Origin: Bryobacteraceae bacterium
Lineage (GTDB): Bacteria; Acidobacteriota; Terriglobia; Bryobacterales; Bryobacteraceae
Assembly (NCBI GenBank): GCA_030041035.1
Contig: JASHOO010000282.1
Span: 1-41,760, forward strand
Length of the DNA: 41,760 bases
Reading direction: 5' to 3'
Shown: positions 9,708 to 41,760 of the stretch, piece after piece
How positions within the stretch are numbered: position 1 is the stretch's first letter
How the letters are laid out: the number at the start of each line of letters is the position of its first letter
Translations under genes and position numbers: made by a program
The notes under the pieces: model-generated
Told to the model about the DNA's origin: nothing
Databases searched by the model: none
The model's input: the letters and a program-made list of their open reading frames with translations, nothing else

Positions 9708-10331
9708 GTGATCATCAACCCGCCCGAACACGACTATCGCGACATCTATAAGCTCATGGTCGGCGTGATCGTGCCGCGGCCGATCGCATTTGTTTCGACG
9801 ATCAGCGAGGATGGTATCCGGAACCTGGCGCCTTTCAGCTTCTTCACCGGCATCAGCGCCAATCCGCCGGTGATCTGTTTCTCTCCCATGATTCGCGGCT
9901 CTGACGGCGCGCGCAAGGACACACTGCGCAATTGCGAGGCCACGAAGGAATTTGTGGTGAACGTGGTCTCAGAGGAATTCGCGGAGAGGATGAACATCTG
10001 CTCGGTCGAGTATCCGCCGGAGGTGGATGAGTTTGAGATGTCGGGGCTCACGCCGGTTGCGAGCGACCTGGTGAAACCGCCGCGCGTGAAGGAATCGCAC
10101 ATCAGCATGGAGTGCCGCCTAGTGCAGATTGTAGAGGTGAGTTCGAAACCTCTGGGCGGAAGTCTGGTGATGGGCGAGGTTCTGCGCTTTCACGTAGACG
10201 ATGCGCTATTTGAGAACTACAAGATCGATCCTGACAAACTGCACGCCATTGGCCGCATGGGCGGGCCTACGTACACGCGCACCACTGATCTGTTCGACAT
10301 GGTGCGGCCTAAGGCGGGCCAAAGCCGATGA
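9708..10331 (+). CDS. Flavin reductase-like FMN-binding protein
   Basis: This 207-residue protein has the DIM6/NTAB flavin reductase fold. The N-terminal 'VGVIVPRPIAFVSTISEDG' and 'NLAPFSFFTGISANPPVICFSP' segments are the usual flavin-phosphate binding region, and 'DTLRNCEATKEFVVNVV' follows as in the family. Such proteins supply reduced FMN to a partner monooxygenase or act as FMN-dependent enzymes. The GTG start at 9708 lies three bases after hmgA, and the stop overlaps the next ATG as ATGA, so it is translationally coupled to both neighbours. No monooxygenase partner is present in the operon, so its job in homogentisate breakdown is unknown; oxidation chemistry on an aromatic intermediate is one possibility. 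Confidence 0.85.
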   Translation: MIINPPEHDYRDIYKLMVGVIVPRPIAFVSTISEDGIRNLAPFSFFTGISANPPVICFSPMIRGSDGARKDTLRNCEATKEFVVNVVSEEFAERMNICSVEYPPEVDEFEMSGLTPVASDLVKPPRVKESHISMECRLVQIVEVSSKPLGGSLVMGEVLRFHVDDALFENYKIDPDKLHAIGRMGGPTYTRTTDLFDMVRPKAGQSR

Positions 10332-12229
10332 CGTGGATCTGGGATCCTTCGCGCGAATGGATTGAACGGACCAATGTTTGGCAGTTCATGCGCAAACTCG
10401 GCTTTGCGGACCGCGAGGAGTTCCTCCGCTACTCGCGCGAGAGCATTGAAGACTTTTGGGAGCGCATGGTGGAACAGGAGGGAATCGAGTGGTTTCAGCC
10501 TTATAGCCGTGTGCTGGATGCTTCGCGCGGGGTGGAGTGGGCGGAGTGGTTCCTCGGCGGCAAGCTGAACCTCGCGTGGAACTGCCTGGACCGGCACCTG
10601 GCGCGGGGCAACGCGGCATGCATCTGGGAAGGTGAAGACGGCGCGGTGCGAACGCTGAGCTTTGCGCAACTGGCGGATGAAGTGAATCGGCTTGCCAACG
10701 GGCTGGCGGAGCTGGGCCTGGTGAAGGGCGATCGCGTAGCGCTGGTGATGCCCATGGTTCCGGAAGTCGTGATGATTCTCTATGCCTGCTGCAAGCTGGG
10801 ACTGATCGTGGTGCCGATTTTCGCGGGCTTCGGCGCGAGCGCCATAGCCACGCGCCTGGAGAACTCGGGCGCGCGTGTGGTTTTCACAGCGGATCACGCG
10901 CAGCGGCGCGGGCGTTTGCTACCGCTGAAAGAGAGGGTGGATCAGGCGATCGAGAGACGGACGGCTATTGAAAAGGTCATCATCTGGCGGTATAAAACCG
11001 GCGAGATTCCATGGCACGAAAGCCGCGATGTCTGGTGGAACGATCTGGTTCGAGGCCAATCTACGATTCGCGATTCGTTGCCGCTGGATTCCGAAGATCG
11101 CGCGTTCATCCTCTACACGTCGGGCACCACGGGCAAGCCCAAGGGCACCGTGCACACACACGCCGGATGCCTGGCGCAGATGTCCAAAGAGATTTACCTG
11201 GCTTTCGATCACAAGCCCGAAGACCGCTTCTGGTGGCTTTCCGACATCGGCTGGATGATGGGACCGTGGACCATCATCGGGAATCACAATTTCGGCGGCA
11301 CAATCTTCCTTTACGATGGCGCGCCGGATTACCCGGCGGCGGACCGTCTGTGGCAAATGATCGAGCGTCACGGCATTACGACTTTCGGGATCTCACCGAC
11401 GGCGATTCGGCTGCTCATGCGAGCCGGAACACCGACACAGCAGATGCCGTCGCTGCGGCTGCTGGGCTCAACCGGTGAGCCGTGGGATGACACGTCGTAC
11501 CTCTGGTATTTCGAAAATGTCGGACGCCGCCGGTGTCCCATTATCAACATCTCGGGCGGGACCGAGTTTGTGGGTTCGTTTCTAAGTGTGCTGCCGATCC
11601 AGCCGCTCAAGCCATGCACGCTCGGCGGGCCCGCTCCGGGCATGGCGACGGAGGTGGTTGACGAAGGCGGCCATGCAGTTCGGGGCAAGAAAGGCTACCT
11701 GGTTTGCATGAAGCCTGCGCCTTCGATGACACGCGGTGTCTGGGGGGATCCGGAACGCTACATGGAGACCTACTGGTCGCGTTGGCCCGGCTGGTGGAAC
11801 CATGGCGACTGGGCCAGCGTGGATGAAGACGGCTGCTGGTTCGTGCATGGGCGGGCGGATGAATCCATGAATGTGGCCGGGCGCAAGGTCGGGCCGGCGG
11901 AGGTGGAAGAGGCACTGATCGAACATCCGGCGGTCTCAGAAGCTGCGGTCATCGGGGTGCCGGACGAATTGAAGGGCGAGGCGATTGTGGCGTTCGTTGT
12001 GACGAAACCGGGGTTCGTGGCCGGTACTGCCCTGGAGGAGGAACTTGCCAAACATCTCGTGGATGCGCTCGGGCCAACGTTCAAGCCGCGGGCGGTGCGT
12101 ACGCTGCGAGAGCTTCCCAAGACGCAAAGCGGGAAGATTGTTCGAAGGCTGCTGCGCCAGAAGTATTTGGGCGAAACCCTCGGTGATCTCTCCACGGTGG
12201 AGAATCCGCAGGCCCTCGAAAGTTGTTAA
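10328..12229 (+). CDS. AMP-forming acyl-CoA synthetase (acetyl/acetoacetyl-CoA synthetase-like)
   Basis: This 633-residue ANL-superfamily ligase activates a carboxylate as acyl-AMP and transfers it to CoA. The P-loop 'YTSGTTGKPKG' (near residue 264), 'ISGGTE', 'NHGDWASVDEDGCWFVHGR', hinge region 'NVAGRKVGPAEVEEAL' and C-terminal 'KTQSGKIVRRLLR' with the catalytic lysine are all intact. An acetyl-CoA-synthetase-type N-terminal domain precedes the core ('WFLGGKLNLAWNCLDRH'). It overlaps the flavin reductase by four bases (ATGA) in the hmgA operon. Homogentisate breakdown ends in fumarate and acetoacetate, so activation of acetoacetate is an attractive role. That is an inference from context; acetate, propionate or an aryl acid are alternatives. 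Confidence 0.85.
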   Translation: MTWIWDPSREWIERTNVWQFMRKLGFADREEFLRYSRESIEDFWERMVEQEGIEWFQPYSRVLDASRGVEWAEWFLGGKLNLAWNCLDRHLARGNAACIWEGEDGAVRTLSFAQLADEVNRLANGLAELGLVKGDRVALVMPMVPEVVMILYACCKLGLIVVPIFAGFGASAIATRLENSGARVVFTADHAQRRGRLLPLKERVDQAIERRTAIEKVIIWRYKTGEIPWHESRDVWWNDLVRGQSTIRDSLPLDSEDRAFILYTSGTTGKPKGTVHTHAGCLAQMSKEIYLAFDHKPEDRFWWLSDIGWMMGPWTIIGNHNFGGTIFLYDGAPDYPAADRLWQMIERHGITTFGISPTAIRLLMRAGTPTQQMPSLRLLGSTGEPWDDTSYLWYFENVGRRRCPIINISGGTEFVGSFLSVLPIQPLKPCTLGGPAPGMATEVVDEGGHAVRGKKGYLVCMKPAPSMTRGVWGDPERYMETYWSRWPGWWNHGDWASVDEDGCWFVHGRADESMNVAGRKVGPAEVEEALIEHPAVSEAAVIGVPDELKGEAIVAFVVTKPGFVAGTALEEELAKHLVDALGPTFKPRAVRTLRELPKTQSGKIVRRLLRQKYLGETLGDLSTVENPQALESC

Positions 12230-27609: not shown

Positions 27610-29751
27610 ATGGCGCGCGCCGTCAGTCCGCAACTTTCGGTCGAGCGCTTTTTCCAGCTTGCCATCCTCGGTCTCGTCACCAGCGGTTATCTCGCGGTAG
27701 CAGGCTCCGGTTATCTCGACACGCCCACCGTTGTTGTCACCGGGCTGGGATTGCTGTTGCGCGCGCTCCTGGTCATGGAGGTCATACGCCTGGAATTCTC
27801 CGCCGGCCTCGTAACCCTGGTAACTCTGGGCTACATCGCCTTCTATCCCGTCGATTACTTTTTCCTGTCCCAATCCTTTCTGCAAGCCACCATTCATCTG
27901 GTCTTTTTCCTCGCGGTCGTGAAAATTCTGACCGCAAGCACTAACCGCGACTATCTCTACGCCGGTGCCATCGCGTTTCTCGAAATTCTTGCCGCGGCGA
28001 TTCTGTCTGCCAGCTTAAATTTTCTTTTGTTCCTCGGCTTCTACCTGCTCTGCGCTATGGCTGCCTTTACCAGCGCTGAAATCCGCCGGGCTATGCAGAA
28101 GCCGCATCAGATTGCGCGCCTCGGCCTGCGCCGTTTTCATCTCCGGCTCGCGGCCGTCGCCGCATCCGTGACCCTGGGCATTCTGGTTCTCACGGCGGGC
28201 CTGTTTTTCCTGCTGCCCCGCGGCGCCAATGCCTCTCTGAGCCGCCTGGTTTCCCACCGCGTTCACGTACCGGGCTTCTCCAACGAGGTAACACTCGGCG
28301 AAATCGGTGAGATCAAGAATGATTCGAGCGCCGTGATGCACGTCCGCGCTGAGTCACCGCACTTCCCGGACAACCTCAAGTGGCGCGGCGTTGCCTTGAG
28401 TGATTTCGACGGCAAGCGCTGGTCGAATCCGCCTGGCGAAGGGCCGACCGTGCGCCTGGAGGATGGCTGGACGCTCGTCACCGATTGGCCGCACGTCGGA
28501 CATCCTCTCTACTACCACGTAACGCTCAATGCGGTCGATTCCAATGCCCTGTTCGTCGCCGGACTGCCCTCGCATGTGCGGCCGGAGCGTATTAGCCCCG
28601 GTCTTCCCGGCTTACAAAACGATGTGGTCCGCGGCCCGAACGACAGCCTGCGACTGCGCTTTCTCCCGCCCGGCAACTTCCGCTACTCCGTCTCCGGCGT
28701 TCTGGAAAGTCCTTCTCTGGTCGTAGATCACGCCCCTTTGTTCCCTGCGGCACGCGAGCACTACCTGCGGCTACCGCGAATCGATCCGCGCGTGCGGGAA
28801 CTCGCTGAACAAGTGACGGCCGGACTGTTCACACAATTCGCCCGAGCCCGCGCCATCGAGAATTATCTACGCCGCTCCTACGGCTACGCGCTGGAGTTCC
28901 CCGATCACGAGCCGAAAGACCCGATCGCATATTTCCTGTTTGAGCGCAAGAAAGGCCACTGCGAATACTTCGCCTCCGCCATGGCGGTCATGTTGCGCGC
29001 CATTGGCATCCCCTCGCGGCTGGTCAACGGCTTTCAAAGTGGAACGTTCAACCCGATTTCTGGTCAATATGTCATTCGCGCCTCCGACGCGCATAGTTGG
29101 GTAGAGGCGTACCTCGAGGCCCGGGGCTGGACTACGTTCGATCCCACACCGTCCGACCCGTCCGCCCACAATGGGGGTTTGCTCGCCCGGTTCGCTCTGT
29201 GGACCGACGCTGCCGATACCTTCTGGCAAGACTGGATCCTGCGATATGATCGAGGCCGGCAATTCTTCCTCGCCGCTCAATTGGATGGTGCAAGCCGGCG
29301 CTTGCGTCTCGGGTGGCTGGGCGGCTGGAGTGGCATCTTCGGCCAATGGCGGGTGCAAATCGCCGCCAGGCTCAAAACATATGGACCCGCGCTGGCCGTA
29401 CTTGTCGCCCTGGCCACAGCGCTGGTGTTTGCAGGTCCGCGCGCGTTTCGCTCGTTGCGCATGCTGCATCGCGTCCGGCGCGTCCGCGAGGGTCAGGTGT
29501 CGGCCGGCGACGCCACAATCTTATACCAGCGCATGCTCGACGTGCTGCGTAATCGTGGTTTTCAAAAGCCTGCCTGGTTCACGCCGCGCGAGTTCGCCGC
29601 CTCCCTCCCCGCCGAAACCGGTATGCTGGTCGATCAGTTCACCGCTGCATATAATGATGTCCGCTTTGGCGGCAAGCTCGACGCTGCACCTCGCCTGACC
29701 CTGCTGCTCGAAGAATTGGAAACCGGGCGGACAGGTATCCCGACAATCTGA
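27610..29751 (+). CDS. TgpA-like membrane protein with transglutaminase domain (DUF3488 type)
   Basis: The protein has 713 residues. Residues about 15-210 contain six or more membrane helices (for example 'FFQLAILGLVTSGYLAVAG', 'VTLGILVLTAGLFFLLP'). A periplasmic domain at about 215-550 includes a transglutaminase-like cysteine-protease fold with catalytic Cys in 'KGHCEYFASAMAVMLRA', His in 'DAHSWVEAYL' and Asp in 'WTTFDPTPSDP'. A further helix near 605 and a C-terminal cytoplasmic DUF4129-like tail ('LYQRMLDVLRNRGF', 'TPREFAASLP') follow. This is the TgpA plan, essential in Pseudomonas; the reaction is not established. Such genes often accompany MoxR-DUF58 genes, but here it stands between an amidase and a GAF gene. 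A DUF4129/DUF4350 group lies 9 kb downstream. Confidence 0.87.
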   Translation: MARAVSPQLSVERFFQLAILGLVTSGYLAVAGSGYLDTPTVVVTGLGLLLRALLVMEVIRLEFSAGLVTLVTLGYIAFYPVDYFFLSQSFLQATIHLVFFLAVVKILTASTNRDYLYAGAIAFLEILAAAILSASLNFLLFLGFYLLCAMAAFTSAEIRRAMQKPHQIARLGLRRFHLRLAAVAASVTLGILVLTAGLFFLLPRGANASLSRLVSHRVHVPGFSNEVTLGEIGEIKNDSSAVMHVRAESPHFPDNLKWRGVALSDFDGKRWSNPPGEGPTVRLEDGWTLVTDWPHVGHPLYYHVTLNAVDSNALFVAGLPSHVRPERISPGLPGLQNDVVRGPNDSLRLRFLPPGNFRYSVSGVLESPSLVVDHAPLFPAAREHYLRLPRIDPRVRELAEQVTAGLFTQFARARAIENYLRRSYGYALEFPDHEPKDPIAYFLFERKKGHCEYFASAMAVMLRAIGIPSRLVNGFQSGTFNPISGQYVIRASDAHSWVEAYLEARGWTTFDPTPSDPSAHNGGLLARFALWTDAADTFWQDWILRYDRGRQFFLAAQLDGASRRLRLGWLGGWSGIFGQWRVQIAARLKTYGPALAVLVALATALVFAGPRAFRSLRMLHRVRRVREGQVSAGDATILYQRMLDVLRNRGFQKPAWFTPREFAASLPAETGMLVDQFTAAYNDVRFGGKLDAAPRLTLLLEELETGRTGIPTI

Positions 29752-31395: not shown

Positions 31396-32226
31396 CTACT
31401 TCGCGAACTGAATCGTAGAGTCCGCGCTGAACCGCTTGTAGTTGCTGTAGCGGATTTGCAGCCGGATGCGTTGCAGCCCTGTGCGAAACGCCAGCGTATC
31501 ATCCGCGTACGTGAAAACAGGGAACCAGTGTTTCCCATCGACTGGCTCGCGCACCGTCGTAAAACGTGGAAACAGATTCTCCTCTTTCGCCGTATGCAAC
31601 TGCGGTACCGCCTGCCCTTCGGAACGGATGATGGCGAAGTCATCTTTCTTGATCCACAGCATGCCATCGAACAACCTCTGCCCAGAGAGAATCTGGCGCG
31701 GCTTCACCTGGAGCACCCAGCAATCTACGTCGTCGATCTTTTCATCGCCGCGAGGTTTGGTTTCGTAGAGTGACAGCAGCTCGTCTACCAGCACGAAGGG
31801 CTGGATGTTGCGGATGTCGGCGAAATCCTCGTCCGTTAACTTGAGGTTCTTCAGCGTCTCTAACGGCGCTCCGATCATCACCTCGGTGCGCTCTGCGGCC
31901 GGGGAAAAAATCACGTCCCGCACTTCGTGATATTGCCCCACCATGGCGCCGCGATCACTCAGCTCTTCGACGGTCACCGTCTGCCGGTAGGTGTAATGGC
32001 CGCGCGCCTGCTGCGTTTCCGTTTCCACCTGTGCCGCCCGGCGCGCCAGGTTGGCAGGCGGTTCTTGCGCGAGTGCCGCCAGCCCCGATGCTAGAATGAT
32101 GCCGATGCATCCCAGGCTCGGCGCCTTCCGCGCGGCCCTGTTGACCGGCTGGATGGGGTTGAGCGCCGCTGGTATCCTGTACGCCCGCCAGAAAAATATT
32201 CCTCTGTGGGCGGCCGTTCCCATCAT
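31396..32226 (-). CDS. Exported LolA-like / outer-membrane lipoprotein-sorting-like protein
   Basis: The body of the protein, from about residue 55, is secreted-looking and beta-rich: 'YTYRQTVTVEELSDRG', 'VDDVDCWVLQVKPRQ'-like 'IDDVDCWVLQVKPRQ', 'FDGMLWIKKDDFAIIRSEG' and 'IRYSNYKRFSADSTIQF'. This pattern matches LolA/LppX-like folds (COG2834) that bind lipid or lipoprotein. A signal-like segment 'CIGIILASGLAALAQ' ends near residue 54. The only ATG codons in frame are at 32226 and 32223, which leaves 35 residues before that segment and runs antisense across the start of the CPBP gene. A rare start codon nearer 32110 would give a normal signal peptide. The extent of the 5' end is therefore uncertain; the family call is moderate. 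Confidence 0.6.
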   Translation of the reverse strand: MMGTAAHRGIFFWRAYRIPAALNPIQPVNRAARKAPSLGCIGIILASGLAALAQEPPANLARRAAQVETETQQARGHYTYRQTVTVEELSDRGAMVGQYHEVRDVIFSPAAERTEVMIGAPLETLKNLKLTDEDFADIRNIQPFVLVDELLSLYETKPRGDEKIDDVDCWVLQVKPRQILSGQRLFDGMLWIKKDDFAIIRSEGQAVPQLHTAKEENLFPRFTTVREPVDGKHWFPVFTYADDTLAFRTGLQRIRLQIRYSNYKRFSADSTIQFAK

Positions 32227-33082
32227 CGCCGCGTTCCTTGTCGAGTTTTCATTTTATCTGGTTCCCAGTTTCGAGACCGTCCGCAACTGGCTCTGCAATA
32301 CGCTTTCGCGCCGGTGGCTTGCCGCTGCCGTTGCTCTTAGCGCAGTCCTGCCCTACCTCATCTACAGCATCCCTACCGGCGAGTTCCACTGGACGGCGTT
32401 CGCCACGTTGTGCGCCCTGATCGCGGCCGTGTCGTTCTGGTATGTCGCGCTCGGACCTTCCATCGTGGCCGACGCTCTGTTTCTTACTTTGCTGGCCGCG
32501 ATTATCCTGACCCGCTCCTTCGATCACATCTATACATCCTCCGCCGTCAAGGGCATCTCCATCCTCGGCCATCTCATGTTGATCCATACCGGAGCGCTGG
32601 CGGTGCTCGTCGTGCGCGGCGGCGAGCGCGTAGCCTTCGGTTTCATTCCCACCCAAAAGGAATGGATCATCGGTGTCCGCTATTTCTTCTATTTCATCCC
32701 TCTCGGTTTTCCATTGGCCATATGGCTCGGCGTTGCCCATCTCAGCTTCACCGCAGGTGTGCTTCTGTGGAAAGCATTGGCTTATTTTTTCGGCGCCCTC
32801 TGGGTAATCGCGCTTTCCGAAGAATTCTATTTCCGCGCCCTCCTACAGCACTGGCTGACCGCGTGGACCGGCAGGCCCTGGCCCTCGCTTGTCGCCGCAT
32901 CCATTCTCTATGGCGCTGCTCATCTTGGATTTCGGGCCTTTCCTAATTGGAAAATGGCTCTGGTCGCCGCAGGCCTCGGATGTTTTTGCGGCATGGCGTT
33001 TCGAAAGGCCGGCAGCATGCGTGCCAGCATGGTCACGCACGCGCTGGTCGTCGCTCTTTGGCGTACTTTGTTCGTTTCTTGA
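32105..33082 (+). CDS. CPBP family intramembrane metalloprotease
   Basis: This multi-pass membrane protein of about 325 residues has roughly eight hydrophobic segments. The Abi/CPBP signature is present: 'ALSEEFYFRALLQHWL' with the Glu pair and Arg, then 'ASILYGAAHLGF' with His, and a late segment 'MRASMVTHALVVALW' with another His. These residues bind the metal and water in Rce1-like proteases that cut CAAX proteins or other membrane substrates. Starts at 32096, 32099 and 32105 are all in frame; 32105 is chosen because TAGAAT (32092-32097) ends seven bases before it, as in the leaderless pattern seen elsewhere here. The substrate is unknown. Divergent to the LolA-like gene, whose 5' end overlaps it. 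Confidence 0.82.
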   Translation: MHPRLGAFRAALLTGWMGLSAAGILYARQKNIPLWAAVPIIAAFLVEFSFYLVPSFETVRNWLCNTLSRRWLAAAVALSAVLPYLIYSIPTGEFHWTAFATLCALIAAVSFWYVALGPSIVADALFLTLLAAIILTRSFDHIYTSSAVKGISILGHLMLIHTGALAVLVVRGGERVAFGFIPTQKEWIIGVRYFFYFIPLGFPLAIWLGVAHLSFTAGVLLWKALAYFFGALWVIALSEEFYFRALLQHWLTAWTGRPWPSLVAASILYGAAHLGFRAFPNWKMALVAAGLGCFCGMAFRKAGSMRASMVTHALVVALWRTLFVS

Positions 33083-33149
33083 CATAATATCTAGGTCGCG
33101 GTTGTACGAAATGTAACCGATGCGGCCGGAATTGCGTCGGAGTTTCATA

Positions 33150-36100
33150 ATGAAGCGTCGAAATTTCGGTACGTTCCTGCTGATATTTTCCTGCCTGGGC
33201 GTGCTGCGCGCTGCTCCCTCAGCCGCATTTTCCGGCCGCTATGCGCTGATTCTCTCCGACCCCTCGGCCGCCGAGTTCGCGCAGGCACATCGCAATGCGC
33301 GGCAGGCGGTCGAAAACCATCGTCAGCAGCTTCGCGACGCGCAATCGTCTTTGCGTAGCCAGTTGGCAAACCGCCATTACACGGTGACGGGCTCAGTGCA
33401 AACCGTGCTGAATGCAGTCTTCGTCATCGCTACGCCGGCGCAGGTAGCCGAACTACGAAGCCTGCCGGGCGTCAAGGCCGTCCGGCCCCTGCGCCGCTTT
33501 CATCTCAACCTCGATCGCGCGGTGATCGTCATCAACGCCAATCCGAAAGGATGGGACCTCGTCGGCGGACCGGCCAATGCTGGAAAAGGCCTGAAGATCG
33601 CCATGATCGACACCGGCATCGACATCACCCACCCTGCATTCCAGGATCCCTCCCTCTCCATTCCCGCCGGTTTTCCAAAGTGTGACGTCCCGTCCGACTG
33701 CGTCAACTTCACCAACAGCAAAGTCATTGTGGCTCGCAGCTATATCAAGCTACTGGCCGCCGGCAGCGGGACCCCCGCCACCACGACGCCCGACGATTAC
33801 TCCGCCCGCGACCGGGATGGTCATGGCACTTCCACCTCGATGTGTGCGGCCGGTGAAACCAACTCCGGACCCGTCACCACCATTACCGGTGTCGCGCCTA
33901 AGGCCTATCTGGGCAACTACAAAGTTTTTGGCGATCCCGAGGTCAATGGGTTTACCACCGGCGATGTCATCATCGCGGCTCTTGAGGATGCCCTCAATGA
34001 CGGGATGGACATCGCCTCCCTCTCGCTCGGCAGCACCGCGTTCTCTGGCGCGCTCGATACTGGCTCCACCTGCGGCGAACCTGCGGGTTCCCCTTGTGAT
34101 CCTGAAGCATACGCCGTCGAAAACGCGATCCAATCCGGAATGCTGGTCGTGGCCGCTGCCGGCAATGAGGGCGCGAACGGTGATCTGACCACCTCAGATG
34201 GCACAACCGTCACCACCCTCAACACCATTGATAGCCCCGGCGACGCCCCGTCCGCCATTTCCGTTGCCGGCAATCAGAACGGCCACACGTGGACGTCGGC
34301 CGTGCTCGTCACCAGCTCCAATGCTCCCTCCACTATCCAGAACATTCAGGCCCAGGCCAGCCTCGATGGCCCGCAGCCGGGCAGAACCACCGCCCCTTTG
34401 TTCGACGTCGGTCCCATAACCGGCGATCCGCTCGGCTGCAACACCATTCCCGGCGGCGCTCTTAGCGGCGACTTAGCCCTCATCGAGCGGGGAACCTGTG
34501 ACTTCTCCACCAAAGTATTCAACGCACAGGCCGCCGGTGCTGTCGGAGTGATCGTCTACGATACCAGCACAAGCACCCCCATTACGGCCGTAGGCTTGTT
34601 CGGAACTGCCATTCCCATGGCTATAATCGCCGAACCCGGAGCCTCCGCCCTTCAGAGCTTCACCGACGCTAATCCCGGCTCCCCGGCAACTCTGGAATCC
34701 GTAGCGATAGGTCAGGACTCCGACATCATGGCCTACTTCTCCTCGCGCGGACCCACCATCGACGGCATGATGAAGCCTGACGTGACCGCCGTAGGAACCG
34801 ATCTCTACATGGCAGCCGAGCGCTTCAATCCCGATGGAGATCTCTACGGCCCGGATGGTTACACCATCGCCGACGGTACCAGCTTCGCTACCCCGCAAGT
34901 GACCGGTACTGCCGCTCTGGTCAAACAGGCACACCCGAACTTCACGCCCGCCGAGCTGAAGTCTGCCGTCGTCAATACCGCGGTGGGGAACGTGCTCACC
35001 GAAACTGCCTTCACCGGATCGCAAGCCGGCGCCTCAGTTCCGGCTTTCCTCATCTCCCAGGGAGCCGGCCTCCTTAACGTGGCCGCGGCCCTCTCCAGCA
35101 CAGTCGCCATCGATCCGGCGGCGGTGTCATTCGGATACCTGGGAACGGGTGCCTTCCCGCCGGCGGGCCAGCAGCTCAAACTCACCAATACAGGCTCCTC
35201 TACCCTCAATCTCACGCTGGCCGTGAACCAGATCACCACCGATGCCAACGCCAAGGTCAGCCTTAGCTCGAACTCCATCTCGCTCGCCGCAGGCCAGTCG
35301 GACACTGTCACCGCTTCGCTGGGCGGCACCATGCCCGTTGCCGGCAGTTACCAGGGATTCATTACCATCACCGGCGGAGCCGAGGTTCTGCAAGTGCCCT
35401 ATCTGTATATACTGGGGGATGGCGTGCCCTATAACACCACGCCGGTTCTCAGCATTAGCGATTTCGATTGTACGGTCGGCCAGACCCTCCCCGACGGTGG
35501 CCTCGCCTTCCAACTCATCGATCAGTACGGCGTCCCCATTTCCGGCACGGCGATAACCTGGAGCGTCAATACGGGTGGAGGCTCGATCAGTAGCGACCCC
35601 AACCTCACCGACTCTGCCACCGAAGCCATCCCGGGTACGCCCGGCCTCGGTTTCGCCACGGCTACCTGCGGCCCTCAACCCGGCCCTCAAGAGTTTCAGG
35701 CGCTGGTGGCCGGTATGCAGGTTTTGTTCGATGGAACGGCGCGCTTGAATCCCACCATTGCCCCAAACGGCGCCGTGAATGCAGCCAGCTTCCTGGTGGG
35801 CAACGGTGTCGCGCCAGGCTCCTACGTGACTCTGTTCGGCACCGGTTTGAGCGACACGACCGACAGCTTCACCACGCCCTATCTCCCCTTGGCCATCGAC
35901 TATGCCAGCGTCAGCTTCGACGTTCCCAGCGCCGATCTCAGTCTGCCTGGCTTGATCTCTTACGTCAGCCCCGGCCAGGTCAACCTCCAGGTTCCGTGGG
36001 AATTGCAAGGGCAATCTTCAGTCTTCATTAAGGTGACTATCGAGGACAGCCAGGGCACCGTCTACACGCTGCCCCTGGCCCAGTATTCACCCGCATTCTT

Positions 36101-36476
36101 CGATTACCTGGAGCCTGTCACCAATAATCTCCTGCTCATCGCCTACGATTCGTCCGGCGATTTGATCGGCTCCTCGAATCCCGCCACTCCTGGTCAAACG
36201 ATTCAACTCTATGCCAACGGCCTGGGACCCGTAAACAACCAGCCTGCTGACGGCCAGGTCACGCCCGCTTCGCCTGCTGCCGCCACCACAACCACCCCCA
36301 CCGTTACCATCGGTGCACAGACAGCCGCGGTCCAGTTCAGCGGCCTCGCTCCCAATCTGATCGGCGTATACGTGTTGACCGTGCAAGTTCCGGCCGGCAT
36401 CACCGCCGGAATGCAACCTGCCGTCGTCAGCATCAACGGCGTGGCTTCCCCGCCATCAACCCTACCCGTGCAGTAA
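33150..36476 (+). CDS. Secreted subtilisin-like serine protease with PA and TIGR03437 domains
   Basis: The protein has 1108 residues. ATG at 33150 is preferred over 33120: GGAG (33139-33142) precedes it and the signal peptide 'RRNFGTFLLIFSCLGVLRAA' begins there. A propeptide-like inhibitor region follows (about 25-130). The S8 catalytic domain has Asp in 'IAMIDTGIDITHP' (about 153), His in 'DRDGHGTS' (about 226), Asn in 'AAAGNEGANG' and Ser in 'DGTSFATPQVTG' (about 576). A PA insert lies at about 430-520 ('LIERGTCDFSTKVFNAQAAG'). Fn3-like segments follow, and the TIGR03437 domain occupies about 870-1108 ('NAASFLVGNGVAPGSYVT'). It is an extracellular or surface protease. The TIGR03437 domain is characteristic of Solibacter-like acidobacteria and may be a surface-anchoring or sorting module; its role is unknown. 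Confidence 0.92.
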   Translation: MKRRNFGTFLLIFSCLGVLRAAPSAAFSGRYALILSDPSAAEFAQAHRNARQAVENHRQQLRDAQSSLRSQLANRHYTVTGSVQTVLNAVFVIATPAQVAELRSLPGVKAVRPLRRFHLNLDRAVIVINANPKGWDLVGGPANAGKGLKIAMIDTGIDITHPAFQDPSLSIPAGFPKCDVPSDCVNFTNSKVIVARSYIKLLAAGSGTPATTTPDDYSARDRDGHGTSTSMCAAGETNSGPVTTITGVAPKAYLGNYKVFGDPEVNGFTTGDVIIAALEDALNDGMDIASLSLGSTAFSGALDTGSTCGEPAGSPCDPEAYAVENAIQSGMLVVAAAGNEGANGDLTTSDGTTVTTLNTIDSPGDAPSAISVAGNQNGHTWTSAVLVTSSNAPSTIQNIQAQASLDGPQPGRTTAPLFDVGPITGDPLGCNTIPGGALSGDLALIERGTCDFSTKVFNAQAAGAVGVIVYDTSTSTPITAVGLFGTAIPMAIIAEPGASALQSFTDANPGSPATLESVAIGQDSDIMAYFSSRGPTIDGMMKPDVTAVGTDLYMAAERFNPDGDLYGPDGYTIADGTSFATPQVTGTAALVKQAHPNFTPAELKSAVVNTAVGNVLTETAFTGSQAGASVPAFLISQGAGLLNVAAALSSTVAIDPAAVSFGYLGTGAFPPAGQQLKLTNTGSSTLNLTLAVNQITTDANAKVSLSSNSISLAAGQSDTVTASLGGTMPVAGSYQGFITITGGAEVLQVPYLYILGDGVPYNTTPVLSISDFDCTVGQTLPDGGLAFQLIDQYGVPISGTAITWSVNTGGGSISSDPNLTDSATEAIPGTPGLGFATATCGPQPGPQEFQALVAGMQVLFDGTARLNPTIAPNGAVNAASFLVGNGVAPGSYVTLFGTGLSDTTDSFTTPYLPLAIDYASVSFDVPSADLSLPGLISYVSPGQVNLQVPWELQGQSSVFIKVTIEDSQGTVYTLPLAQYSPAFFDYLEPVTNNLLLIAYDSSGDLIGSSNPATPGQTIQLYANGLGPVNNQPADGQVTPASPAAATTTTPTVTIGAQTAAVQFSGLAPNLIGVYVLTVQVPAGITAGMQPAVVSINGVASPPSTLPVQ

Positions 36477-36565
36477 CTCGGTGTCGCGTCGCTGCTAACA
36501 ACGGTTAATCCTCGCGCCGCTTGCCTCCGCGCGTGACGGGAACTTACAATGGCGATGCGGCTTCT

Positions 36566-37348
36566 ATGGACTGGTATTACGCCGAATCGGGGCGTCAGAT
36601 AGGTCCGATTCAGCAGGAATCTTTCGAGGCGCTGGTGCGTTCCGGCGTCGTACGGCCCGACACCCTCGTTTGGCAGCAAGGCATGCAAAACTGGCAGCCC
36701 TATGGAACGGTTGCGCCGCCGCAACCCCAGCCTGTCGCCGTGGCCACCGCGGTCGCCGATTCTTCAACCCGCTTCTGCACCGAGTGCGGCCGGCCCTTTC
36801 GCCAAAGCGAACTGATCCCCTTCGGCAATTCCTTCGTTTGCGTGGCGTGCAAAGAGGTCTTTGCCCACAAACTGCGGGAAGGGGTCAATGTGGGCGGGGC
36901 CGTCCGCTATGCAGGATTCTGGATCCGCTTCGTGGCCCTCCTGATCGACGGCGCTATTTTGGGAACCATCGGCACCCTCCTCAATATGGTCGGCATGCTC
37001 GTGTTCTTTCGAGGGTTGGCGCCGCGCGCTCCGGGCGCCGCGGTGGTCTATTCCGGGGTGTTTATCGCATACGAGGGGGCCCTGTTCCTGATCAACATCG
37101 CCATCGGCATTTCCTACAGCGTCTACTTTTGGACCCGCTATGGAGCCACTCCCGGCAAGCTGGCTCTCAGGCTGAAAGTCGTGACCTCGGCCGGAGGACC
37201 GATATCGGTGTCGCTCGCCATAGGCCGCTTCTTCGCCTATTACATCAGCGCCTTTACTTTGGGCATCGGCTACATCATGGCGGGATTCGACCCGCAGAAG
37301 CGCGCTCTACATGACCGCATCTGTGACACCCGTGTGATTCACGTCTGA
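36566..37348 (+). CDS. GYF_2-zinc ribbon-RDD membrane protein
   Basis: The protein has 260 residues. ATG at 36566 starts exactly at a GYF_2 (DUF4339) domain: 'MDWYYAESGRQIGPIQQ' and 'WQQGMQNWQPYG'. A Pro/Val linker, a four-cysteine element ('FCTECGRPF...FVCVACKEVF', about 70-100) that probably binds zinc, and an RDD membrane domain from about 110 follow ('RYAGFWIRFVALLIDGAIL', 'TRYGATPGKLALRLKVV', 'FDPQKRALHDRICDTRVIHV'). RDD proteins are thought to be transport- or envelope-related; GYF_2 is believed to bind proline-rich peptides. It heads a run of membrane genes with nine-base and smaller gaps. The exact role is unknown. Confidence 0.83.
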   Translation: MDWYYAESGRQIGPIQQESFEALVRSGVVRPDTLVWQQGMQNWQPYGTVAPPQPQPVAVATAVADSSTRFCTECGRPFRQSELIPFGNSFVCVACKEVFAHKLREGVNVGGAVRYAGFWIRFVALLIDGAILGTIGTLLNMVGMLVFFRGLAPRAPGAAVVYSGVFIAYEGALFLINIAIGISYSVYFWTRYGATPGKLALRLKVVTSAGGPISVSLAIGRFFAYYISAFTLGIGYIMAGFDPQKRALHDRICDTRVIHV

Positions 37349-37357
37349 CGAGAAGCA

Positions 37358-37936
37358 ATGCCCGTTCCCTGCGCCCGCTGCCAGGCTCCCCTCCCCAACT
37401 ACTTCTTCGTCGCCAACCACCCCATGCCGTGCCCAGCCTGCGGCGCCGAAATGGCCGTCCGTGCCTTTCCGGCCCTCTTTGCGGGCCCTCGGCCCACGGC
37501 GGTGGGTGAGGATTCTTCGGCCGGAGAGGCGAGCTGTTTCTACCATCCGGAAAAACGCGCCTCCGTCACCTGCCATCTCTGCGGCCGATTCCTGTGTGGG
37601 ATGTGCAACGTCGAATTCAAAGCCCGGAACTGGTGCCCGAGCTGTCTCGAATCGAGCAGCCGCAAGCGAAAGGGAGCCGATTTTGAGAACCATCGCGTTC
37701 TGTACGATTCCATTGCGCTGGCCTTCGCTACTTTTCCGTTTCTCGCACTTTTCTGGCCCTGCATCGTCGGCGCGCCCGTGGCTCTCTACATCTCAGTCCG
37801 CCACTGGAAATCTCCCGGCAGCATCCTGCCGCGTACCAAGATCCGTTTCCTTGTGGCGATTCTCCTCGCCGTGGGCCAGTTGGTTCTGATGGGAGCGTTG
37901 ATCTATACCATCGCGCGCGCTCCCCGCCTGGCATGA
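37358..37936 (+). CDS. Zinc-ribbon / B-box-like two-helix membrane protein, function unknown
   Basis: The protein has 192 residues. An N-terminal zinc ribbon ('PCARCQAPLPN', 'MPCPACGAEM') is followed by a B-box-like finger at about 60-105 ('CFYHPEKRASVTCHLCGRFL', 'CGMCN', 'WCPSCLES') and two membrane helices at about 125-150 and 165-188. This arrangement, Cys-rich cytoplasmic head and short membrane tail, recurs in the gene at 38903, suggesting related proteins. I know no assigned function. Nine bases separate it from the RDD gene, and its stop overlaps the next start (ATGA at 37933), so it is co-translated with its neighbours. Confidence 0.75.
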   Translation: MPVPCARCQAPLPNYFFVANHPMPCPACGAEMAVRAFPALFAGPRPTAVGEDSSAGEASCFYHPEKRASVTCHLCGRFLCGMCNVEFKARNWCPSCLESSSRKRKGADFENHRVLYDSIALAFATFPFLALFWPCIVGAPVALYISVRHWKSPGSILPRTKIRFLVAILLAVGQLVLMGALIYTIARAPRLA

Positions 37937-38892
37937 GGTGGCGAACCGAACGCCGGTACCGCAGGCTGCCCGGCAGGCCCTTCACCGCCTTTCGTCGTGA
38001 CTCCCTCTGGCTCGCCGAAGATCACCTGCTTTCCGTACAATGCAACCGCTTCGCGGAAGACTATCGCCGGTATTATTTCCGTGACGTGCAGGCGCTCACC
38101 ATCCACCGCACTGCGCCCGTTAGCCCCTGGGTTTATCTCACTGGCGCCCTGGCTGCCGTGCTCCTTGCGCCTGGACTGTTCTTCGAATTGCAAAACGCCT
38201 TTCTGTGGTCCTCCGGCGGCCTGTTCCTGGCCCTCACACTGGCCTTCATCGGTCTCGGCCCTACCTGCACCTGCTACATACAGACCGCCGTCAGCCGGGA
38301 GCGCCTCGGTTCTCTCCGTTGGATGCGCGTTGCCGAAAAGGTCCTGCGCATCCTCCAGCCTCGCATCGACGAGGTGCAGGGCCCTCTCAACCTCGAAATG
38401 CTGTCGTTGCCTTTTGAGCCGCCGCTCAGTGATCCCGCCATTCCTCCACCCCTCCCCACACACAAACTCCCCGAAACCGGCTGGGGCTATGAGTTCCTTT
38501 TCGCAGTCCTGTTGCTCGACAGTCTCCACGCCTATCTCGGCCTCTCCCACAGGGGAACCGCTATGGAGGTCGCCACCTGGGCCATCCTGATCACCGAGAT
38601 CGTTTCTATTGTCTGGCTGCTCGTCCGCCAGCGGCGATTTGAAGTTCCCCTCAGCATCCGCGTCCTGGTGATTGTCGCGCTGGTTGCAACTGCCGGCTTC
38701 AGTTATGCCGCCAACATCGTGAGCGCCATCGGAAGGCAATTGAGACCCGGCAACACGGTTTATCCCGGTTACGTTCCTCTTCACCTGATCGATATGGCCA
38801 TCTATGCCGTCCTGGGCGCCGCAGGCTTTGTGCTCATCACCCGTCATCGGCGAACCCTGCGCCGGCCGCCGCCTCTGGCCGCCCCTCAGTGA
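37933..38892 (+). CDS. Multi-pass membrane protein, unknown family
   Basis: This 319-residue protein is not recognised. The N-terminal 55 residues are soluble and Arg/Tyr-rich ('RRYRRLPGRPFTAFRRDSLW', 'LSVQCNRFAEDYRRYYFRD'), somewhat like a PH-like or DUF304-type membrane-associated domain ('DVQALTIHRT'). Two close helices follow at about 60-110, then a cytoplasmic or periplasmic segment ('LRILQPRIDEVQGPLNLEM'), and four more helices from about 175 to 310. It is coupled by ATGA overlap to the upstream zinc-finger gene and 10 bases from the next one. Conserved gene order could reveal its partner; no enzymatic motif is visible. Confidence 0.72.
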   Translation: MRWRTERRYRRLPGRPFTAFRRDSLWLAEDHLLSVQCNRFAEDYRRYYFRDVQALTIHRTAPVSPWVYLTGALAAVLLAPGLFFELQNAFLWSSGGLFLALTLAFIGLGPTCTCYIQTAVSRERLGSLRWMRVAEKVLRILQPRIDEVQGPLNLEMLSLPFEPPLSDPAIPPPLPTHKLPETGWGYEFLFAVLLLDSLHAYLGLSHRGTAMEVATWAILITEIVSIVWLLVRQRRFEVPLSIRVLVIVALVATAGFSYAANIVSAIGRQLRPGNTVYPGYVPLHLIDMAIYAVLGAAGFVLITRHRRTLRRPPPLAAPQ

Positions 38893-38902
38893 AGATTCTT
38901 CT

Positions 38903-39208
38903 ATGTCTACCCTTGCCCAACAGCGTTGTTTGCATCATCCTCACCGCGAAGCGGTTTGCCGCTGCCCCAACTGTGCCAATTATTTTTGCCGCGAATGCGT
39001 TACCGAACATGACGACCGCCTTGTCTGCGCGGCTTGCCTCCGCCGTCTTTCCTCGCCGGCCCCGCGCCAGCGCGCCCTTGGCCACGCCGCGGGCCTCATA
39101 AGCGCGTTCGTCGGCCTCGTACTCGCCTGGCTCTTCTTCTACTACGCCGGACGCGCCTTGATCCTGATCCCAGCCGACGTTCACGAAGGCACCGAATGGC
39201 GGCCCTGA
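38903..39208 (+). CDS. Small B-box-type zinc-finger membrane protein
   Basis: The protein has 101 residues. A B-box-like zinc finger lies at about 8-48 ('RCLHHPHREAVCRCPNCANY', 'FCRECVTEH', 'LVCAACL'), with Cys/His spacing similar to the second finger of the protein at 37358. One membrane helix lies at about 60-85 ('LISAFVGLVLAWLFFYYAG'). ATG at 38903 is chosen because the finger begins shortly after; an open frame extends upstream over the previous gene but looks non-coding. It overlaps the following DUF4129 gene by 13 bases. The finger probably mediates protein contact; the function is unknown. Confidence 0.75.
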   Translation: MSTLAQQRCLHHPHREAVCRCPNCANYFCRECVTEHDDRLVCAACLRRLSSPAPRQRALGHAAGLISAFVGLVLAWLFFYYAGRALILIPADVHEGTEWRP

Positions 39209-40776
39209 AAGAGCGCAGCGCCGTCGAGCTGCTCGAAGAAGCTTTTCACCTGCTGCGCCAGGCGCCGCACGCCCTGCTGCTCTACTACTACATCGGCGCC
39301 CTTCCCTTTCTTTTGGCCGCGCTCTTCTTCTGGGCCGACATGGCGCACAGCGGTTTCGCTCGCGCCAACTGCGCTGCCGAATCGCTGGGCGTCGCAGTCC
39401 TTTATGTCTGGATGGCCTTCTGGCACGCGCGATTCGCCCACGGCCTCCACACCCAGGTCGATCCTTCCACCGCCGCCAATCCCCCACACCTCTGGCGTAT
39501 CGCTTACCTGCAATCTTTGGTGCAATCCAGCAAGCTCTTCATCCTGCCGATTGCGCTGTTCTGCCTGCTCCCCTTCGCCTCCGTTTTCGCTTTCTACCAG
39601 AATGCCGCCGTGCTCGTGACTGAAGCCCCTGACTTTCGCTCCCTCATCGCGCACTCCGCGCGCCAGGCCGGCTACCGTGCGCGGCAAAACTGGACAATCG
39701 TTTCCATCCTGCTCCTGTTTTCCCTGTTCGCATTTTTCAATCTCGGGATCACCCTCTTCATCGCCCCGCATCTGGTCAAAATGCTCCTCGGGATCGAAAG
39801 CGCCTTCACCCGCAGCGGCGTCCATTTGCTGAATTCAACCCTGATCGCCGCCGCCGCTGGCCTCGCCTGGGCCGCCATCGATCCGCTCATCAAGGCCGTC
39901 TATGTGCTCAGATGTTTCTACGGTGAATCTGTGACCACCGGAGCCGACCTCAAAGCCGCCATTGCGAGCCTCCGCCGCGCCGCCGTCCTCGCCTGCCTGC
40001 TCGCGGCCGTTTGTCCCGCCATCCGCGCGCAAAACAACATCCCGCCCTCCGAGCTCGATCGCTCCATCAACCAAGTCATCCACCGCCCCGCCTACACCTG
40101 GCGCATGCCGCGCGACGTAGCGCCCGAAGCCGCTCCCGGATTCCTCGACGCGGCCGCCGATGCCACCAGGCGCGGCCTGCATCGCGTGACCGAATGGCTC
40201 CGGCCCATCATTGATTGGGTCCGCGATATGCTTCGCGAAAAACCGACGCCCCACGACTCCAGAATCGGTGAACTCGGTCCCAGCGCAAAACTCCGCTGGC
40301 TACTGTACTCGTTAATCGCCCTGCTTGCCATCGCCGCCGCCATCCTCGTCCTGCGCTTCCTGCGATCCAAGCGGCGCGCGAAGCCGGTTCCCGTAATCGC
40401 CCAAGCCACGCCCGACGAAGACCTCGCCGCCGATCGCCTCGATGCCGCCAGGATCCCCGAAGACCGCTGGCTCACACTCGCCGAGGACCTCGTGGCGCGC
40501 GGCGAGCTCCGTCTTGCCCTCCGCGCTCTGTATCTGGCCGGCCTTTCCTACCTCGCGCTCCGCGGCCTTCTCACTGTCCAGGCCGCCCGAACCAACCGCC
40601 AGTACGAAATCGAGCTCCGCCGTAGAACCCGCGACCGAATCGAGGTGGCGCAATCATTCTCCGAAAATGCCCGCATTTTCGAACGCATCTGGTACGGCGA
40701 TCATGAAGTGACCGCGCCCGTCATCGAGAACTTTCGCGAAAATCTCCAAAGGATGAAGGCCCGTGCGGAAAGCTAG
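39196..40776 (+). CDS. Large membrane protein with C-terminal DUF4129 domain
   Basis: The protein has 526 residues. ATG at 39196 (overlapping the previous gene by 13 bases) starts a sensible protein; longer upstream frames are Arg-rich shadows. The N-terminal half (about 20-290) is a hydrophobic membrane domain with about six helices ('LLYYYIGALPFLLAALFFW', 'TIVSILLLFSLFAFFNLGI'). 'ACLLAAVCPAIRA' follows like an internal signal or helix, then an extracytoplasmic stretch, one more helix near 382 ('LLYSLIALLAIAAAILVL') and a C-terminal DUF4129 domain ('LALRALYLAGLSYLALRG', 'ARIFERIWYGDHEV'). DUF4129 proteins usually sit beside DUF4350, MoxR and DUF58 genes. The N-terminal membrane half is more than DUF4129 proteins normally carry, so this may be a fusion. 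Confidence 0.8.
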   Translation: MAALKERSAVELLEEAFHLLRQAPHALLLYYYIGALPFLLAALFFWADMAHSGFARANCAAESLGVAVLYVWMAFWHARFAHGLHTQVDPSTAANPPHLWRIAYLQSLVQSSKLFILPIALFCLLPFASVFAFYQNAAVLVTEAPDFRSLIAHSARQAGYRARQNWTIVSILLLFSLFAFFNLGITLFIAPHLVKMLLGIESAFTRSGVHLLNSTLIAAAAGLAWAAIDPLIKAVYVLRCFYGESVTTGADLKAAIASLRRAAVLACLLAAVCPAIRAQNNIPPSELDRSINQVIHRPAYTWRMPRDVAPEAAPGFLDAAADATRRGLHRVTEWLRPIIDWVRDMLREKPTPHDSRIGELGPSAKLRWLLYSLIALLAIAAAILVLRFLRSKRRAKPVPVIAQATPDEDLAADRLDAARIPEDRWLTLAEDLVARGELRLALRALYLAGLSYLALRGLLTVQAARTNRQYEIELRRRTRDRIEVAQSFSENARIFERIWYGDHEVTAPVIENFRENLQRMKARAES

Positions 40777-41760
40777 CTGGCTCGTGCTCGCGCTCGCCCT
40801 GGCCTTCGCCTTCGGCCTGGTGGAATTGTTCCGCTGGCGCTTCGAGACGGGCGACATCTACCCTGATTATTCGTCCCTCCGCACCGATCCCATGGGAACC
40901 GAGGCGCTGTTCGAAAGCCTCCAGGCCATTCCCGGACTCTCCGTCACCCGCAACTATCAGCCCCTCGATCAGGTCCAGCCCATGGGCGCCACTATCTTCT
41001 ACCTGGGCGTGGGCCTACCATCACTCCTGCTCACCGATCCGGCCGATTTCAACAAGCTCACCTCCGCCGGCGCGCGCCTGGTCATTGGCCTGTTGCCGGT
41101 TTTGGATTGGCACGCTGGAACCAAGCCGGACCAATTCGAACTCAAGCCGTGGCGTGTCACACTCGCGCTCGCCCAGCCCAATCCGAAACGCCGTTCCAAT
41201 CTGCTCTACTTCAACCCCTCGAAAGATTGGACCATCGCACGCGCCGCCTCGGGCCACGCTATCTTGATCGAGCGCCCGTTCGGCAAAGGTTCCCTCGTGC
41301 TCGCCGCCGACAGCTATCCCATGAGCAACCAGGCCCTGATGTTCGATCGCGACGCCGGCTTGTTGAGCTGGCTCGCCGGCTCCAACCAACATCTGATTTT
41401 CGATGAATCGCATTTTGGCGTGACCGAGACCGGCAGCGTTGCCGCCCTCGGCCGCCGCTATCACCTGCAAGCCTGCCTGGCCGTGCTGCTGCTGATCGCC
41501 GTGCTCTTCATCTGGAAGAATTCCACGCCGCTCGTGCCGCTGCACGATTCGCCTGATCCCGCGCCGCCCACCGCTCAATCCTGGGGCATGCCGCACTACC
41601 TGTTGCGCCGCGCCGTGCCGCCCGCGGAATTGGTCGGTTCCTGTTTGCACGAATGGCGCAAATCCGTGCCGCTCGGGCCGAATTATCCCCACGAGAAGCT
41701 GCACCAAGTCGAACAAATCGCCGACACCGAGCGTGATCCGATTAAAGCCTATCAGGCCAT
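40763..41760 (+). CDS. DUF4350 domain-containing membrane protein (C-terminus off the window)
   Basis: The open frame from GTG at 40763 continues to the right edge without a stop (332 complete residues and part of the next codon). It starts with a membrane anchor ('KASWLVLALALAFAFGLVE') and continues into 'YPDYSSLRTDPMGTEALFES', the recognisable start of DUF4350, with 'TIFYLGVGLPSLLL', 'GKGSLVLAADSYPMSNQAL' and 'FDESHFG'. A second helix near residue 240 ('ACLAVLLLIAVLFIW') is followed by a cytoplasmic tail. It overlaps the DUF4129 gene by 14 bases, a pairing frequent in bacteria and commonly followed by MoxR and DUF58 genes. The function of the group is unknown; a MoxR/vWA-type envelope or maturation system is suspected. 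Confidence 0.8.
   Translation, partial: MRKASWLVLALALAFAFGLVELFRWRFETGDIYPDYSSLRTDPMGTEALFESLQAIPGLSVTRNYQPLDQVQPMGATIFYLGVGLPSLLLTDPADFNKLTSAGARLVIGLLPVLDWHAGTKPDQFELKPWRVTLALAQPNPKRRSNLLYFNPSKDWTIARAASGHAILIERPFGKGSLVLAADSYPMSNQALMFDRDAGLLSWLAGSNQHLIFDESHFGVTETGSVAALGRRYHLQACLAVLLLIAVLFIWKNSTPLVPLHDSPDPAPPTAQSWGMPHYLLRRAVPPAELVGSCLHEWRKSVPLGPNYPHEKLHQVEQIADTERDPIKAYQA

Follow-up and report, generated by a model that had tools for sequence, protein, structure and literature searches.

What joins the six tightly packed genes at the right end of contig JASHOO010000282.1 (GenBank assembly GCA_030041035.1) of a Bryobacteraceae bacterium from the phylum Acidobacteriota, which encode zinc-finger membrane proteins followed by DUF4129 and DUF4350 proteins, and which genes complete the set? 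The stretch analyzed here, referred to below as the window, is this one entire contig of 41,760 bases (C175 in the source genome); its right edge is the assembly end and lies inside the last of six plus-strand open reading frames, genes A to F, that run from position 36566 to the end of the contig. The distances between successive genes are 9, −4, 10, −13, and −14 bases, in agreement with an earlier sequence-only reading of the locus, which had described six packed genes with overlaps or gaps of at most ten bases.

Gene A, 36566 to 37348, plus strand: 260 amino acids; GYF_2 domain, CxxC..CxxC zinc motif (C71, C74, C92, C95), RDD membrane domain
Gene B, 37358 to 37936, plus strand: 192 amino acids; N-terminal CxxC..CxxC zinc ribbon, B-box-like finger, then membrane helices
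Gene C, 37933 to 38892, plus strand: 319 amino acids; predicted PH/PTB-like domain at about 9-150 with an inserted membrane hairpin (65-107), four long helices (184-310)
Gene D, 38903 to 39208, plus strand: 101 amino acids; B-box-like finger and one membrane helix
Gene E, 39196 to 40776, plus strand: 526 amino acids; multi-pass N-terminal membrane domain, last hydrophobic segment at 368-386, C-terminal DUF4129
Gene F, 40763 to 41760, plus strand: DUF4350 protein, 332 amino acids visible, truncated by the contig end

Genes A to F form the first section of an operon of ten genes, whose other members code for a MoxR-type AAA+ ATPase, a DUF58 protein, a SpoIIM protein, and a second RDD protein. 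With a probability of about 0.4, the ten products are read here as a single membrane machine that would be driven by the MoxR-DUF58 pair and equipped with a cytoplasmic adaptor layer formed by A to D, and that would assemble or remodel envelope proteins.

The GYF_2-RDD, DUF4129, and DUF4350 assignments made from the letters alone all exceed the respective Pfam cut-offs. Gene A scores 57.7 bits for GYF_2 (PF14237; cut-off 25.8) and 90.3 bits for RDD (cut-off 24.1); gene E scores 26.7 bits for DUF4129 (cut-off 24.8), Transglut_core being absent from it by Pfam; and gene F, which adjoins the DUF4129 gene, scores 35.0 bits for DUF4350 (cut-off 30.4). The four cysteines of A are invariant in 19 aligned sequences, and the CxxC..CxxC motif is present in 86 of 93 A sequences. 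The tight packing extends to the relatives, in which the median intergene distances, for starts picked by a script, range from −4 to 9 bases. A promoter-like site at 36521-36550 is at chance level, as one such site was found in the stretch versus 0.9 expected.

The same reading had placed probable MoxR and DUF58 genes off the right edge, and the source genome carries them on a different contig. Profiles of both families have zero matches within the window, and a search of the source genome with a profile of long DUF58 proteins gave one strong match, on contig C596 (615.9 bits; the next match scores 66.9). This contig is 4,053 bases long, starts at the MoxR gene, and encodes four proteins, each of them above its Pfam cut-off.

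MoxR, C596 positions 2 to 1000: AAA_3, 206 bits
DUF58, C596 positions 997 to 2295: 79 bits, 432 amino acids
SpoIIM, C596 positions 2292 to 3284: 122.8 bits
Second RDD gene, C596 up to about position 4039: 73 bits

The predicted MoxR and DUF58 genes are thus accompanied by SpoIIM and a second RDD gene within bases 2-4039 of C596. The ends of C175, which stops within the DUF4350 gene, and of C596 have no 15-base word in common, and the same genes are contiguous in relatives; from the gene content and these relatives, we infer that C596 directly continues the window contig. The textbook metal site is DxSxS; the DUF58 protein (L217:997-2295) has the consensus DASRLSAR, with a spacing unlike that site and with the D and both R residues invariant in 26 sequences, followed by a nearly invariant T-x-L-D.

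The gene order is conserved, both in the family and far outside it. Genes A-B-C-D-E-F are found in this order in 22 of the 25 regions around C matches from the same family (one of them, L041, with a frame break); among the other three, the contig of L040 ends after E, L032 has only B and C, and L053 has none of the genes. A wider set of loci came from a species-genome collection that was searched with the D alignment via one exact motif, giving 285 pattern matches and 259 relatives, of which the best 80 are referred to as scan loci. By the submitters' titles, these 80 belong to Verrucomicrobiota (34), Thermodesulfobacteriota (19), Acidobacteriota (7), Myxococcota (4), Nitrospirota (3), Pseudomonadota (3), Hydrogenedentota (3), Kiritimatiellota (2), Lentisphaerota (2), and Poribacteria (1), with two unassigned. 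The strict order A-B-C-D-E-F-MoxR-DUF58-SpoIIM-RDD is seen in 42 of the 80, many of the others being cut by contig ends, and B-C-D-E-F are in order at 62. All ten genes, in any arrangement, are present at 45 of the 53 scan loci with room for them, and E follows D at 75 of the 79 with room for it (L066 counted as having E). Strict ten-gene order occurs in at least seven phyla, namely Verrucomicrobiota, Thermodesulfobacteriota, Acidobacteriota, Nitrospirota, Kiritimatiellota, Lentisphaerota, and Poribacteria; the Myxococcota label of 4 loci, which are titled Deltaproteobacteria, and the Pseudomonadota label of 3 loci are doubtful, and both are excluded from this count. Carriers of the ten-gene set include Trichlorobacter thiogenes and Chthoniobacter flavus, and the set is split in Desulfonema magnum. 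In three distant genomes (L203-L205), the order is permuted to D-E-F-MoxR-DUF58-SpoIIM-RDD-A-B-C with all ten genes retained, C being weak (23-32 bits). The unit is taken to be these ten genes because the flanking genes are not conserved, the largest flank cluster being present in 16 of 105 loci.

Presence and absence of the genes follow the same pattern, and the zinc-finger genes co-occur with those for DUF4129 and DUF4350 in related genomes. Strong matches to B (>110 bits) and to E (>360 bits) are found in the same 28 of the 150 genomes of the order, with 122 having neither (Fisher p = 5e-31, a value that ignores kinship and gene adjacency). Gene C, searched with a single-sequence query, was found in 23 of the 150, all of them within these 28. 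In the phylum, 297 genomes were sampled; seven of them have strong matches to D (>100 bits), and the same seven have strong matches to E (>370 bits), with the two genes sharing a contig. Some match to the D model is seen in 66 genomes and some match to the E model in 49, mostly short finger-only or DUF4129-only ones, and three further genomes carry a diverged D adjoining E.

Several variants of the arrangement were observed along the way. Two adjacent genes matching the A profile stand at the head of the operon in L033 (7372-8965) and L034 (11155-12636); in the Chthoniobacter-type loci L057, L065, and L099, an A-matching gene lies upstream of B on the opposite strand; and in Cerasicoccus (L094 and L102), A is located between C and D. 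L122 shows no match to the second RDD gene, with 3.4 kb left to the contig end. The window D is 35-44% identical to 17 D proteins of its family and, by a different method of calculation, up to 56% identical to a Verrucomicrobia D, in a list that also has three Bryobacteraceae/Bryobacterales D proteins at 52-55%. A quick tree built from 91 E proteins shows phyla clustering (17 changes versus 33.7 in shuffled data, 25 rows being uncounted), has the window outside every starred set, and puts Bryobacteraceae/Bryobacterales nearest by path. Horizontal transfer of the window operon is not claimed.

The B-box-like nature of B and D, proposed in the sequence-only reading, holds for the two families at E ≤ 0.1; the single window sequences score below the Pfam zf-B_box (PF00643) cut-off of 24.1 (B, 20.2 bits; D, 11.6 bits), with D also at 16.9 bits versus a cut-off of 27 for the ANCHR-like B-box. 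At the family threshold, zf-B_box is matched by 33 of 35 aligned B sequences, and the 40 aligned D sequences match the ANCHR-like B-box in 38 cases and zf-B_box in 35; sites inside the B genes of two further genomes, G342 (25.4 bits) and G222 (26.2 bits), exceed the zf-B_box cut-off. Twelve Cys/His positions are invariant in the 35 aligned B sequences, as are C9, H12, C21, C24, C29, C32, H36, C42, and C45 in the 40 aligned D sequences. A paired Cys/His pattern for two zinc sites, as predicted from sequence, is present in 103 of 105 D and 95 of 97 B sequences. Profile comparison identifies the B finger and D as homologous (hhalign probability 97.8, E = 1.2e-12), and in both the last ligand pair is CxxC; the textbook B-box carries histidines at this pair. 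A profile search of the PDB with D gave no significant row, only weak ones such as Midline-1 (E = 0.084).

The D finger is probably cytoplasmic because the finger side of the membrane helix has the higher net positive charge in 38 of 40 sequences. An HxGT motif follows the helix in the tail of 22 of the 40 aligned D proteins, where it would probably be outside the cytoplasm. The claim that bacteria seldom have B-box-like fingers on membrane tails proved overstated: a B-box match above the Pfam cut-off is present in 62 of 297 genomes of the phylum and in 0 of 14 well-known control genomes, in counts that take in matches in any protein, membrane-bound or not. A 2011 study of prokaryotic B-box domains by Burroughs and co-workers is cited in PMC8195603. 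The source genome itself has a further B-box match above the cut-off outside the operon (G000:C612:15606-15686, 27.9 bits).

Protein C has no match in Pfam, nor do 26 aligned C proteins have a family in common. Its predicted models have a mean predicted local distance difference test score (pLDDT) of 86.7 for the whole protein and of 92.2 for residues 1-155, the latter with a predicted template modeling score of 0.80. The model shows four strands at 22-59, a membrane hairpin at 65-107, strands at 111-124, and a helix at 131-149, that is, a beta sandwich closed by a C-terminal helix. The four helices at 184-310 look membrane-spanning in the model, with hydropathy detecting three of them, and a structure search with the whole protein was dominated by helical bundles. 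The structure search with the N-terminal part listed 50 rows, almost every one a PH, PTB, or FERM entry by title or domain (4tyz is unnamed). They include, as the best, the PTB domain of CCM2 (Z-score 9.6, root mean square deviation [rmsd] 3.0, 94 aligned), and also the PH domain of Avo1 (Z-score 9.0, rmsd 2.5, 79 aligned) and the bacterial PH protein 3dcx (Z-score 9.0, rmsd 2.6, 84 aligned), all Z-scored rows being a re-ranking of Foldseek matches. Foldseek alone gave no match to this part at E ≤ 0.001, the best being 3dcx (E = 0.057, probability 0.98). Judging from these models, the most likely architecture of C is a PH-like domain that encloses a membrane hairpin; we know no described case of this arrangement, for which no search aimed at it was made. 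The best C at each scan locus is 150-239 amino acids long, about the size of the PH-like part alone, in 37 of 77 loci and longer in 39, some copies being cut. Proline runs are enriched in C (19 of 102 sequences versus 1.3 in shuffled ones), most C proteins being without them, and also in A (16 of 92 versus 1.2) and F (10 of 90 versus 1.9); the runs in C as a possible ligand of the GYF domain within the operon are a weak lead.

The MoxR-DUF58 pair is thus encoded together with eight other membrane-looking proteins, four of which bear adaptor-type domains, and the finger side of D is the more positively charged; on these grounds, A to D are read as an adaptor layer. In the proposed mechanism, the MoxR ATPase and its DUF58 partner, which is vWA-like, would sit in the cytoplasm and act on a core in the membrane that consists of E, the SpoIIM and RDD proteins, and the DUF4350 protein. 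The membrane-anchored layer, with its GYF domain, zinc ribbons, two B-box-like fingers, and PH/PTB-like domain, would dock the ATPase and/or pick client proteins; that all four proteins face the cytoplasm is suggested by the charge pattern of D only. ATP hydrolysis would then serve to assemble or remodel envelope proteins, perhaps under stress. MoxR ATPases and vWA-type partners are described as chaperone pairs in two reports (PMC8195603 and PMC12067865), and a Mycobacterium smegmatis MoxR-DUF58 pair (MSMEG_6612 and MSMEG_6610, which may or may not belong to a DUF4350 cluster) is lowered in the expression table of a sigF mutant (PMC4694148). A bolder form of the same proposal, in which the operon encodes a distinct and undescribed ten-part AAA+ envelope machine, spread over at least seven phyla, whose eukaryote-style kit of membrane-anchored adaptors would direct MoxR-DUF58 to membrane clients, is offered tentatively, with the odds against it.

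Several observations weigh against this reading. Contact among the ten products is a prediction from gene content and order, and the possible stress link is drawn from mycobacteria. Nine DUF4129-DUF4350 loci of the same phylum (L194-L202) are without A to D, so these four are not needed for the DUF4129-DUF4350 pair to persist, and the 122 of 150 genomes of the order without strong B or E indicate that the whole set is dispensable. In the order, another nine genomes show B-model matches of weak score only, and four show only weak matches to the C-terminal part of the E model. In the same genus, genome G001 retains just a short B and a short C, on a contig of 6,753 bases (L032), and G002 gave no C match, which indicates that the set can be lost.

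The E regions without D show what the core looks like in such genomes. DUF4350 is found beside E in nine of 11 such regions; of these nine, five have MoxR, two have DUF58, and one has SpoIIM and RDD, as seen with profiles that may miss distant copies. In the other two regions E is alone, in one of them at a contig end. At the nine D-less loci, E is a DUF4129 protein of 343-413 amino acids, with a separate membrane-protein gene directly upstream in seven. An origin of the longer E by fusion of two plain-cluster genes was considered and is kept as a lead only, the profile comparison of the upstream protein with the E N-terminus being not significant (P = 0.096; unrelated control, 0.13). In the D-less genome L200, a TauE/SafE-family gene (10266-11024, 149.8 bits) lies between DUF4350 and MoxR; genes judged by eye to resemble it occupy the same position in L194 and L195.

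Among the alternatives, it is conceivable but unlikely that the operon encodes a protein export machine, in which the DUF4350 protein, with its large outer domain, MoxR, and the vWA-type partner would drive secretion and A to D would dock substrates in the cytoplasm. DUF4350, MoxR, and DUF58 are all present here, which is the combination for which Makarova and co-workers proposed such a role in archaeal DUF4350-MoxR-vWA operons (PMC5898192, section 3.2). However, the Ig-like/S-layer proteins of the archaeal system were not seen by Pfam among the ten products, of which C matches nothing and F is cut, and the loci have no conserved neighbor as possible cargo. A membrane-remodeling or lipid-handling system is equally doubtful; in it, SpoIIM and RDD proteins would bend or organize the membrane, and the PH-like, GYF, and B-box parts would position the complex. 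SpoIIM belongs to the set, and the model of C is PH-like, a fold some members of which bind lipids, but C is closest in structure to PTB domains, which bind peptides, and no lipid-metabolism enzyme was recognized by Pfam among the ten. Remodeling has been proposed for SpoIIM relatives (PMC5898192, section 3.3).

Compared with these, there is only a slim chance that A to D and the core are two functional units that merely come under one promoter. The two parts can be separated to distant loci, and DUF4129-DUF4350 loci without A to D exist. The partners, however, tend to remain in the same genome. At four loci with D, with or without A to C, and no E nearby, E is encoded elsewhere in all four genomes (in one of them as an N-terminal half on a short contig), and the long DUF58 protein is present in all six split genomes checked. 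At three loci without B nearby, B is found elsewhere in two genomes, and in the third (L103, a 2.1-Mb record) only the locus's own D was matched. The missing neighbor was accordingly recovered elsewhere in six of the seven genomes whose locus had room. Genome-level presence is thereby concordant in 6 of 7 split cases, as it is in all 28 genomes of the order, and the permuted order retains all ten genes. A biological-conflict (defense or cell-death) system of the MoxR-vWA type is very improbable: the MoxR protein of the source genome exceeds the Pfam bpMoxR cut-off (32.7 versus 27 bits) and the adaptor domains are eukaryote-like, but its AAA_3 score is much higher (206 bits), Pfam identifies DUF58 alone, and no effector domain, on the 432-residue DUF58 protein, PADLOC run on the ten proteins gave a single weak match (DolB, E = 0.0026, for MoxR), and the gene content is constant, with no swapped effectors.

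On the left side of the operon, a large subtilase with a PA domain is encoded on the same strand at 33120-36476, ending 89 bases before gene A, and an Rce1-type membrane protease (32051-33082, 51.5 bits) is encoded two genes upstream of the operon. A TgpA-type protein with TgpA_N, transglutaminase core, and DUF4129 domains is encoded at 27610-29751, about 7 kb upstream of the operon; this protein and gene E account for the two DUF4129 matches in the source genome.

The view of the locus as an undescribed system stands for A to D and for the ten-gene version, and does not stand for the core (DUF4129, DUF4350, MoxR, DUF58, SpoIIM, and RDD), which is an already known kind of cluster. No description of the ten-gene version with A to D was recognized in searches of the open-licence literature of PubMed Central. 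Clusters of MoxR and DUF58 genes are widespread and their job is unsolved; the ten-gene version, conserved across phyla and retained when split or permuted, supplies a fixed parts list for this question. The zinc-finger and other docking domains of the set are usually associated with animal and plant cells, and finding B-box and PH/PTB-type domains in a membrane system that is widespread among bacteria bears on the origin of eukaryotic adaptor domains.

The mycobacterial form of the core, the Rv3689-Rv3695 region, includes DUF4129. In an expression table for Mycobacterium chelonae, DUF4350, MoxR, DUF58, SpoIIM, and RDD genes carry neighboring numbers (PMC8191103). All six kinds of genes of the plain MoxR-DUF58-DUF4129-DUF4350-SpoIIM-RDD cluster are found both in L202, from this phylum, and, on two contigs, in the source genome; the plain cluster differs in being without A, B, C, and D, and L202 has its SpoIIM gene on the opposite strand. 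The TgpA/YebA-type operons consist of MoxR, DUF58, and transglutaminase-DUF4129 genes. They have MoxR, DUF58, and DUF4129 in common with the set described here, whereas no transglutaminase is among the ten and the TgpA-type gene lies apart. The archaeal arCOG01314/DUF4350 predicted secretion system likewise combines DUF4350, a MoxR-family ATPase, and a vWA-type protein; its Ig-like/S-layer proteins were not seen here, and B-box, GYF, and PH-like parts are unmentioned in the section that presents it (PMC5898192, section 3.2). The Bat (aerotolerance) operon has MoxR and DUF58 (PMC11834572), but its separate vWA and TPR proteins were not found by Pfam among the ten. The MoxR-vWA ternary conflict systems (PMC8195603) are alike in MoxR and differ in that no effector domain, VMAP, or iSTAND was recognized here. 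Finally, GltJ of Myxococcus gliding motility resembles A in having a GYF domain on a membrane protein: residues 2-68 of A match the NCBIfam GltJ model (E = 4.2e-8), at 32.7 bits versus a cut-off of 450, so that the domain alone is in common. In GltJ, the GYF and zinc parts are reported to act as a recruitment switch.

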